64,000 nt of DNA from assembly GCF_001458355.1 (NCBI RefSeq), contig NZ_CYSA01000026.1:62001-126000 (forward strand), written 5' to 3'. The translations under genes and the position numbers were made by a program. The notes below the pieces were generated by a model that made no database searches, was not told where the DNA came from, and saw nothing but the letters and a program-made list of their open reading frames with translations. Each line of letters starts with the position of its first letter. Position 1 is the stretch's first letter. Source of the DNA: Thalassovita gelatinovora (GTDB lineage: Bacteria; Pseudomonadota; Alphaproteobacteria; Rhodobacterales; Rhodobacteraceae). This document shows positions 55,880-58,005 of this stretch, piece after piece.

Positions 55880-57457
55880 TCAATGGACGTCTTTGTAGTT
55901 GATTTCCTTGCGGTCACCACCAGGGGATGTCTTTTCACGGCGGACAATCAATCTGTTCAAAGCATGTATATAGGCCTTCACGCTTGCGACAACCGTGTCC
56001 GTATCGGCTGATTGGCCGGTCGCGATTCGACCATCTTCTTCGATTCGAACCGAAACAGTGGCTTGCGCATCAGTGCCCTCGGTGACCGCATGGACTTGAT
56101 ACAGCTGCAGTTTCGCCTTGTGGGGATACAGCATCTTGACCGCGTTGAAGGCGGCATCGACCGGGCCATCGCCGGTGGCGTCGATAGTCTTTTCTTCGCC
56201 GTTGACGGTCATCGTCAGTTCGGCTTCCTGCGGGCCTTCGGTGCCGCAAACGACGCGCAGCCGTTTCAGTTGCAACGCGTCCGCGCCACCTTGCACGACT
56301 TCGTCCTGCACCAATGCGATCAGGTCATCGTCAAAGACTTCTTTCTTTCGATCAGCCAGTTCCTTGAAGCGCACGAAGATGTCGTTCAACTGATTGGCGG
56401 CCAGATCGAAGCCAAGCTCGTTCATCTTGGCGCGCAGCGCCGCGCGGCCGGAATGTTTGCCCAGCGGCAGCGACGTGCCCGCGATGCCGACATCTTCGGG
56501 ACGCATGATTTCGAACGTTTCCGAATTCTTCAGCATACCGTCCTGATGGATGCCGGATTCGTGGGCAAAGGCGTTTTTGCCGACGATCGCCTTGTTGAAC
56601 TGTACCGGGAACCCCGACACGGTCGCGACCCGGCGCGAAATGTGCATGATCTTGGTGGTATCGATCCGAGTCTGGTAGGGCATGATGTCGTTGCGCACCT
56701 TCAGTGCCATCACCACTTCTTCCAAGGCGGTATTACCGGCCCGTTCGCCAAGCCCATTGACAGTGCATTCGATCTGCCGCGCACCCGCTTCGACTGCGGC
56801 CAGCGCGTTGGCCGTCGCCATGCCAAGGTCATTATGGCAATGGGTGGCGAAAATCACGTCTTCGGCACCGGGCACTTTTTCGATCAGCATCCGGATCAAG
56901 TCGGCGCTTTCGCGCGGGGCAGTATAGCCCACCGTGTCAGGAATGTTGATCGTGGTGGCCCCGGCCTTGATCGCGATTTCGATCACCCGGCACAGGTAAT
57001 CGTGTTCGGTGCGTGTTGCGTCCATCGGGGACCATTGCACGTCGCCGCACAGGTTGCGCGCATGGGTGACCGTGTCGTGGATTTTCTCGGCCATTTCATC
57101 CATCGACAGATCGGGAATGGCCCGGTGCAGTGGCGAGGTACCGATGAAGGTGTGAATGCGTGGCTTGGCGGCGTGTTTCACGGCTTCCCAGCAGCGGTCG
57201 ATATCCTTGAAATTGGCACGTGCCAGCCCGCAGATCGTGGAATTCTTTGACCGCTCGGAAATCTGTTTTACCGCTTCGAAATCGCCTTCGGACGCGATCG
57301 GGAAACCGGCTTCGATAATATCGACGCCCATTTCATCCAGCAGTTCGGCGATTTCCAGCTTTTCATCATGGGTCATGGTCGCGCCGGGGCTTTGTTCGCC
57401 ATCGCGCAGGGTCGTGTCAAAGATCAAGACGTGGTCTTGCTTGGTCATATCGGTCAT
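55880..57457 (-). CDS. leuA: 2-isopropylmalate synthase
   Basis: First committed enzyme of leucine synthesis. 525 residues. The TIM-barrel domain starts DTTLRDGEQSPGATM (about 14-28); metal-binding His pairs lie in THCHNDLGMA (about 204-213). The C-terminal allosteric domain (about 395-510) binds leucine. Expression is probably controlled by the leucine-rich leader peptide 80 bases upstream (57540-57629). AAAGAG precedes the ATG by six bases; a second in-frame ATG is nine bases on. Confidence 0.97.
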   Translation of the reverse strand: MTDMTKQDHVLIFDTTLRDGEQSPGATMTHDEKLEIAELLDEMGVDIIEAGFPIASEGDFEAVKQISERSKNSTICGLARANFKDIDRCWEAVKHAAKPRIHTFIGTSPLHRAIPDLSMDEMAEKIHDTVTHARNLCGDVQWSPMDATRTEHDYLCRVIEIAIKAGATTINIPDTVGYTAPRESADLIRMLIEKVPGAEDVIFATHCHNDLGMATANALAAVEAGARQIECTVNGLGERAGNTALEEVVMALKVRNDIMPYQTRIDTTKIMHISRRVATVSGFPVQFNKAIVGKNAFAHESGIHQDGMLKNSETFEIMRPEDVGIAGTSLPLGKHSGRAALRAKMNELGFDLAANQLNDIFVRFKELADRKKEVFDDDLIALVQDEVVQGGADALQLKRLRVVCGTEGPQEAELTMTVNGEEKTIDATGDGPVDAAFNAVKMLYPHKAKLQLYQVHAVTEGTDAQATVSVRIEEDGRIATGQSADTDTVVASVKAYIHALNRLIVRREKTSPGGDRKEINYKDVH

Positions 57458-57491
57458 GTCGGGTCTCTTTATCTAATCTTGCTAAAGCCTG

Positions 57492-57546
57492 GGCGCGAAT
57501 GGGCACATCCTCTGAGCGGTCGCGCCGGGATCGGCACGCTCAGAGG
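57492..57546 (-). promoter_or_regulatory. Mutually exclusive hairpins of the leuA leader
   Basis: CCTCTGAGCG (57509-57518) and CGCTCAGAGG (57537-57546) form a perfect ten-pair stem that takes in the leader-peptide stop. GGCGCGA (57492-57498) and TCGCGCC (57520-57526) form a second stem whose loop contains one arm of the first, so both cannot form at once. A third pairing links TTGCTAAAGCC (57479-57489) with GGCTTAGCAA (57548-57557), next to the leucine codons. No long T-run follows, so attenuation might act on translation. Confidence 0.65.
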
Positions 57547-57629
57547 CGGCTTAGCAATAGCAGGGCAGCAATCGACAACGCGCCGTCAATGCGGCGTGGT
57601 GTGGTCGAATTATGGCCCTTGATCATCAT
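57540..57629 (-). CDS. leuA leader peptide
   Basis: A 29-codon open frame on the minus strand, starting with two ATG codons (57629-57624) and ending ALLLLSRL-stop. Four consecutive leucine codons, CTG CTA TTG CTA (57563-57552), and a fifth two codons before the stop, are what a leucine attenuator needs. It lies 82 bases ahead of the leuA ATG and overlaps a hairpin. No strong ribosome site is seen before the first ATG, which is the main doubt. Confidence 0.78.
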   Translation of the reverse strand: MMIKGHNSTTPRRIDGALSIAALLLLSRL

Positions 57630-57743
57630 GGGTTTGATTTATACCCGCTGGGTGGTGAAAGAAAACCCTCAATCGATAGATTTTGTATTCCGCCATAATC
57701 AAACGGATCGATCAGGGGCTTAGGTGTCTTTCCGTTGGCTTGA

Positions 57744-57770
57744 TTAAAAACCGCCCCGTTAGGGGCGGTT
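57744..57770 (-). terminator. Terminator of the cold-shock gene
   Basis: On the minus strand AACCGCCCC and GGGGCGGTT (57770-57762 and 57757-57749) form a nine-pair stem with a four-base loop, and the 3' arm runs into a TTTTT tract. It lies about 30 bases after the cold-shock stop. Confidence 0.92.
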
Positions 57771-57798
57771 CATCGTCCGAACCGCTGCGGCAGAGGGT

Positions 57799-58005
57799 TC
57801 AAAGCAGGCTCAGGTCCACCGCGCTTTCGCGACCGTCGCGGCCCGATTGCAGGTCGTAGCTGACTTTCTGATCGTCGGCCAAGCCGGTCAGGCCGGACCG
57901 TTCGACGGCGGAAATATGGACAAAAATGTCTTTGCCGCCATCATCGGGGGCGATGAAGCCATAGCCTTTGGTGGTGTTGAACCATTTAACGGTGCCAGTG
58001 GGCAT
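57799..58005 (-). CDS. Cold-shock-domain protein
   Basis: 68 residues, one OB-fold. RNP1 is KGYGFIAPD (about 13-21) and RNP2 is DIFVHIS (about 26-32). It binds single-stranded RNA or DNA and may melt RNA structure. Small csp paralogues are common, so no number is given. A standard terminator follows. The upstream gap to trxC (229 bases) holds no other gene I can see. Confidence 0.95.
   Translation of the reverse strand: MPTGTVKWFNTTKGYGFIAPDDGGKDIFVHISAVERSGLTGLADDQKVSYDLQSGRDGRESAVDLSLL

Follow-up and report, generated by a model that had tools for sequence, protein, structure and literature searches.

A Leucine-Rich Leader, a Pseudoknot, and a Base Stem before leuA in Thalassovita gelatinovora and Its Family: A Candidate Control of Translation Initiation

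The closest described system is the actinobacterial LEU element (Seliverstov, Putzer, Gelfand, Lyubetsky 2005; PMC1262725). It contains a leucine leader, a pseudoknot, and a base stem formed by the Leu codons with the leuA Shine-Dalgarno (SD) sequence. In Streptomyces, mutations of the leader codons departed from the prediction of classical attenuation, and for this reason the authors favoured a binding protein, according to the accessible text of that paper. The enterobacterial leu attenuator (leuL) likewise has a leucine-rich leader peptide, of 28–29 residues, before leuA (PMC6123439, accessible text). Within the Alphaproteobacteria, Sinorhizobium meliloti trpL is a leader peptide whose mRNA 5′ end is the AUG; it senses tryptophan and acts with a transcription terminator (PMC7298713 and PMC10117765, accessible parts). 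A description of a leucine leader of the present kind in Alphaproteobacteria was not found in the literature consulted; the survey of proteobacterial attenuators by Vitreschak et al. 2004 (FEMS Microbiol Lett) may include alphaproteobacterial leuA.

The window was the whole analysed stretch of 64,000 nucleotides of T. gelatinovora (contig NZ_CYSA01000026.1). The 2-isopropylmalate synthase gene leuA was located at 55880–57457 on the minus strand and scored above the NCBIfam cut-offs of NF002087, NF002086, and TIGR00973. Its likely SD, AAAGAGA, was read at 57464–57470 (minus strand); the anti-SD duplex picked AAGAGA. A leader ORF was read directly at 57540–57629 (minus strand), with ATGs at 57629 and 57626, 29 codons, and a TGA stop at 57542–57540; its product was MMIKGHNSTTPRRIDGALSIAALLLLSRL. 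The four successive Leu codons CTG CTA TTG CTA occupied 57552–57563, and a fifth, CTC, was read at 57545–57543 (both minus strand). The leader stop was 82 nt from the leuA ATG at 57457. The frame with its two starts, the run of four leucines, the leucine near the stop, and the distance to leuA had been reported in a preliminary description, and all were read as reported. A cold-shock-like gene, with NCBIfam matches below their cut-offs, lay upstream at 58005–57799 on the same strand as leuA, 169 nt from the leader.

Three pairings were read in the RNA between the leader and leuA (all minus strand). The first, S1, consisted of ten perfect pairs between 57537–57546, the arm containing the leader stop codon, and 57509–57518. 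The second, S2, consisted of seven perfect pairs between 57520–57526 and 57492–57498. The S1 loop was 57536–57519; the S2 5′ arm was fully inside it, and the S2 3′ arm lay past the S1 3′ arm. The order of the arms was thus S1a, S2a, S1b, S2b, with pseudoknot loops of 10, 1, and 10 nt. The preliminary description had correctly placed the stop codon in a perfect ten-pair stem and had found the seven pairs of S2, but its statement that S2 cannot coexist with S1 was wrong. Since S1 and S2 have no base in common, they are the stems of an H-type pseudoknot, and mutually exclusive S1/S2 hairpins were ruled out. The third pairing, described earlier as joining leader codons to a segment before leuA, was also real. 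This base stem (BS) joined 57557–57548, covering the final two codons of the Leu run plus the ones that follow, to 57489–57479 with one bulge, and its 3′ arm terminated 22 nt ahead of the leuA AUG. S1 and S2 form an H-type pseudoknot, and BS closes over it. The RNA 57640–57440 folded at −66.8 kcal/mol (z −4.08), and none of 200 shuffles was equally low.

The family of the window was sampled with 219 genomes, about one per genus, and 215 of them gave a LeuA match at the cut-off. In genome G020, an interrupted leuA frame kept LeuA from reaching that cut-off: behind an intact element, leuA (L291, 435–2011) was split over two reading frames, by sequencing error or decay. Upstream regions were read for 147 loci, those with the best LeuA scores of the 215, leaving out three near contig ends. 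All of these best-scoring 147 had the element before leuA or before the gene leading into leuA. A fixed rule (at least three Leu in the last nine codons and a stem over the stop) was satisfied directly before leuA in 132 of the 147. As for the other 15, the element stood before a cupin-like gene preceding leuA in 13, before another ORF in L281, and directly before leuA in a weaker form in L283. Runs of at least four Leu codons before an upstream stop occurred in 84 of the 147 loci; the opposite strand had such a run in 1 of 147, and dinucleotide shuffles had one in 0 of 735. The leader ORF and the leucine run were thus kept in relatives, and the earlier reading was not refuted by this check.

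The set for structure tests comprised 129 of the 132 loci, with at least 8 S1 pairs and at least 5 S2 pairs; L137, L138, and L147 were out. An alignment (A1) held 119 of the 129, ten with a gap above 105 nt being dropped, and a 58-position model (R1) was built from 60 of the 119. R1 matched its own genome (that of the window) once and matched 212 of the 219 family genomes. If the reading proposed below is true, leucine control of leuA would therefore extend over nearly the whole bacterial family. The genomes without an R1 match were G028, G033, G090, G113, G159, G192, and G221, of which G113, G159, and G221 also had no LeuA match. Among the 113 genomes listed in both match tables, the R1 match was 5′ of leuA on the same strand in all 113, at 36–219 nt in 107 and 398–458 nt in 6. 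A second R1 match in G151 was weak (30 bits).

Across the 129 genomes, the duplex energy of every segment was computed with its cognate partner and, for comparison, with the partners of other genomes; the values are not corrected for shared ancestry. BS paired with its own partner at −14.3 kcal/mol and with others' at −11.5 kcal/mol, a difference reached in 0 of 20000 permutations (n = 129). A repeat gave z −12.6, compared with −0.7 and −2.3 for other leader segments and +0.8 for a downstream segment used as controls. For S2, the loop of S1 was tested against the 30 nt that follow S1 and gave z −9.1 (control −0.9). The leucine segment gave z −6.8 with the same 30 nt, which in many genomes include part of the true BS partner. 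The z of −5.5 for S1 was inflated because the S1 3′ arm had been located by pairing beforehand. The alignment count is a fairer measure for S1: 99.5% of the cells paired among the 119 sequences, and both-side changes occurred in 4 of 10 pairs (10 cells in total). The stems therefore covaried, S1 modestly because it hardly varies, and this second check did not refute the earlier reading either.

A scan with 15-nt windows gave −12.6 for BS at −32 and −8.0 at −24, −7.7 for S2, and −5.1 for S1. Pairings in or beside the S1 loop reached −6.7, −6.1, and −4.8; a value of −4.5, without explanation, linked the beginning of the leader to the stretch that follows S1. Between −16 and +16 of the start codon, a strong leader partner was absent (top cell z −3.1), and on this weak signal a direct pairing of the leader with the SD or the AUG was rejected for leuA-direct genomes. 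A BS core of at least six pairs was present in 116 of 129 genomes, compared with 42 of 129 with shuffled partners (single mononucleotide shuffles). Relative to the AUG, the BS 3′ end had its median at −19 (interquartile range 4 nt). GCTAA stood before leuA in 41 of 71 genomes with CTTAGC leaders and in 2 of 58 with other leaders. GCAYC came after the loop in 7 of the 13 genomes with GGTGC loops and in 10 of the 116 with GGCGC loops (Fisher p 2e-4). Pseudoknot loops were 4–11 nt (L1), 0–6 nt (L2), and 4–12 nt (L3) in 125 of 129, and the strongly conserved letters of the pseudoknot were GAGCGTGCC and GGCGCG.

A leucine-rich leader peptide of similar length before leuA would also fit the enterobacterial scheme, in which classical transcription attenuation acts through an intrinsic terminator. 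A pattern search of the window at 57400–57900 gave no terminator-like site. Among the 129 loci, 0 had a stem with 5 or more T in the next 7 positions and 2 had one with 4 or more, and the longest T-run was at most 3 in 117 of 129. The stem and T-run test did recover the terminator of the cold-shock-like (csp) gene. That strong terminator-like hairpin with T5, at 57746–57770 (minus strand), is 3′ of the cold-shock-like gene and sets it apart from the leader; it was picked up by the stem and T-run script and missed by the pattern search. An intrinsic terminator before leuA was ruled out by the window search and the 0 of 129, and the earlier remark that no long T-run precedes leuA held in the window and across these loci. 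No Rfam family reached its gathering score in the window; hits with E up to 10 in 57400–57800 were four unrelated families, and a search for a known RNA or peptide family for the leader element gave no match. The family element differs from the enterobacterial leu attenuator in having neither a terminator nor competing antiterminator hairpins nor an Rfam match. With the stem and T-run absent and S1 and S2 not competing, classical attenuation is very improbable. The architecture is of the LEU-element type and is not that of the enterobacterial transcription attenuator.

A −10-like box, TATAAA, was found at 57638–57643 (minus strand), 8 nt 5′ of the leader ATG, and marks a probable leaderless start. 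In 100 of the 129 leaders, a box matching TATAAT at 5 or more of its 6 letters stood 6–9 nt before an in-frame ATG, at 7 or 8 nt in 87; the background was 165 of 2580 windows. When ATGs of all frames at this spacing from a box were counted, 100 of 100 were in the leucine frame, which marks the leader as a real gene. The position of the box suggests that the leader mRNA begins at the AUG and is leaderless, starting near 57629 in the window. This would resemble S. meliloti trpL (PMC7298713 and PMC10117765, in the parts accessible), from which the family leader differs in that its leaderless start is deduced from box position.

The control region of the 129 leaders used CTA for 94 and CTT for 198 of 497 Leu codons, while the leuA coding sequences of the genomes with long loci used CTA for 3 and CTT for 80 of 1067. 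Rare Leu codons also occur in the leu leader of E. coli. The over-use of CTA and CTT in the control codons may reflect either BS pairing or rare-codon sensing; both are possible.

These features of the frame bear on the proposal that the pseudoknot binds a protein or a small molecule, the leader peptide being incidental. The compact pseudoknot with its strongly conserved letters would suit such a site, and a regulatory protein was the preference of the LEU element authors (PMC1262725, accessible text). An incidental peptide is hard to reconcile with a kept frame, a start fixed behind the −10 box in the leucine frame in 100 of 100 cases, and kept Leu codons with rare ones favoured. A ligand site is accordingly considered rather improbable.

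A cupin-like small gene was located between the element and leuA in 16 distinct loci, namely 13 of the 147 and L015, L037, and L239 (the whole set being L239, L242, L278–L280, L282, L284–L290, L015, L037, and L120). One of the proteins was tested and was Cupin_2; the others had the same HRPR motif. The gene stands under the leader and may have a role in leucine metabolism or its control. The cupin-first loci represent a natural REARRANGEMENT: in 13 of 16, a pairing of 7 nt or more joined the Leu codons and the next codon to the cupin SD and ended 5–11 nt before the cupin start; L278, L120, and L288 failed this rule. The codon after the Leu run covaried with the bases before the cupin SD (AGC:GCT, ATC:GAT, ACC:GGT, and ACT:AGT). 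The rule was also passed by 108 of 240 combinations with partners taken from the other genomes, so the fit was partly a general likeness of Leu codons to the anti-SD. BS thus mostly accompanies the start of whichever gene is first, a behaviour that initiation control would predict; L218 was an exception.

The preliminary description had seen here the logic of ribosome-mediated attenuation, with control possibly acting on the leuA start. The leucine leader, the lack of a terminator, and a probable target at the next gene's start, indicated by comparison of genomes, agreed with it; the proposed switching between S1 and S2 did not. The pairing most likely to be switched is BS, that of the Leu codons with the segment before the SD. 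The proposed reading, given a probability of about 0.55 on the basis of sequence comparison, is that the leader is a cis-acting element that tunes translation initiation of leuA, or of the operon's first gene, to leucine supply. Transcription would start at or next to the leader AUG, as the box position indicates, and ribosomes would load on the leaderless mRNA. As the compared genomes show, the Leu codons near the end of the frame form the 5′ strand of BS and its 3′ strand lies at or just before the next gene's SD, with the pseudoknot, whose first stem holds the leader stop, between the two strands. With ample leucine, ribosomes would finish the leader and leave, BS would close over the pseudoknot, and the next gene would be poorly initiated. 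With charged tRNA-Leu short, a stalled ribosome would cover the 5′ strand, block BS, and leave the ribosome-binding region free.

A nested fold model, calculated without the pseudoknot, was used for the openness of the pre-SD segment and SD. Over the loci (n = 124), it rose from 0.495 to about 0.62 on stalling, and was the same with a ribosome at the stop. In the window, openness of the two together rose from 0.64 to 0.70–0.82; that of the SD itself went from 0.73 to 0.43–0.45 at three of four stall positions and to 0.70 at the other. Thermodynamic support for masking in this model is modest, and in the window poor. Other points that weigh against the initiation reading are that BS mostly ends short of the SD in leuA-direct genomes, that a strong partner is absent at −16 to +16, that 108 of 240 non-cognate combinations also fit in the cupin loci, and that leader codon mutations in the LEU element departed from classical attenuation (PMC1262725, accessible text).

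This weak masking would agree with the main rival, in which the same sensor has another output, Rho-dependent termination or RNase cleavage between the leader and leuA, and initiation is not the target. The leader, pseudoknot, and BS would serve such an output equally, and the absent intrinsic terminator agrees with it. Termination would need neither the fixed distance from BS to the first gene's start nor BS on the cupin SD, and this output is regarded as unlikely, though the least so of the rivals. A positive bridge, in which the folded element brings a ribosome from the leader stop close to the leuA start for a restart, would make use of the looping out, by BS and the pseudoknot, of most of the RNA that separates these points. 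It predicts more leuA with more leucine, opposite to the need of the pathway, and a ribosome at the stop codon would itself break S1 and BS; it is thus improbable, more so than a ligand site. Tuning of initiation by BS remains the preferred reading. Simple genetics on the element could show whether stalled ribosomes are able to work by occupying the strand that closes off the start of the next gene.

In wider samples, R1 matched 44 of 289 genomes of a class sample at E 0.01 and 36 of 299 of a phylum sample, all 36 in the same class. Of 30 fetched loci (class matches and the match in the window's own genome), 29 contained LeuA and one ended at a contig edge. In other families of the class (L056–L082 and L243–L267), leuA was also preceded by related leucine leaders, again with a stem over the stop. 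The non-family leaders often ended in a Leu-rich stretch, (R/C)P, and the stop, with a stem over the stop. Pairing tests covered 39 of 42 loci, in which some start codons were badly chosen (e.g., L056, L062, L243, and L249). S1 gave z −11.9, inflated for the same reason as in the family. BS gave z −3.7 and −4.6 and could not be told apart from a control segment, at −4.2; the best GC-corrected cell was −3.0 (n = 37). In these loci S2 and the pseudoknot were unsupported (z −1.2), and a −10 box with a start 6–9 nt later was found in only 1 of 42, in a frame that hits a stop.

The family element and the LEU element share a leucine leader before leuA, a pseudoknot, and the lack of a terminator, a likeness drawn from the description in the accessible text (PMC1262725). 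The pseudoknot fold of the LEU element is present here, with disjoint S1 and S2 in the required order and the S2 signal given above. Its base stem on the SD has a counterpart in the 13 of 16 cupin-first loci; in leuA-direct genomes BS adjoins the SD, overlaps it in 15 of 116, and mostly ends short of it, also in the window. The LEU element belongs to another phylum, Actinobacteria, and the comparison is of architecture, not of sequence. Unlike the LEU element as far as its description was accessible (PMC1262725), the family element has its stop in the first pseudoknot stem, has a BS mostly ending before the SD in leuA-direct genomes, and is seemingly leaderless.

A more general switch may be put forward tentatively, at somewhat less than even odds. 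In it, the sensing codons (CUY CUU/CUA, resembling the anti-SD) would themselves be the closing strand, and a stall on them would free the next gene. This design would occur in Actinobacteria and Alphaproteobacteria, by descent or convergence, and the family version would be portable with the first gene and fed by leaderless initiation. Such a switch would reopen the question of the actinobacterial LEU element, whose mechanism was left unsettled by its authors in the text accessible (PMC1262725). In the family element, the codons, the stop, the pseudoknot, and the target start can be traced through natural rearrangements, e.g., the cupin-first operons.

Some minor features of the leaders and loci were also observed. 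His-Ile was present among residues 4–10 in 73 of 124 leaders; its His was residue 6 in 70, and the codons were CATATC in 65; a pairing partner for this part of the leader was not found in the 15-nt window scan. The equivalent in the window was His-Asn at residues 6–7 (57614–57609, minus strand). In L215, a 32-codon frame followed BS and overlapped the leuA start by ATGA. In L230, BS was 192 nt from leuA, and the frame after it, which begins TTG CAT ACG ATC AAT CTG, resembled the cupin start; it is read, from this resemblance, as a probable decayed cupin gene.
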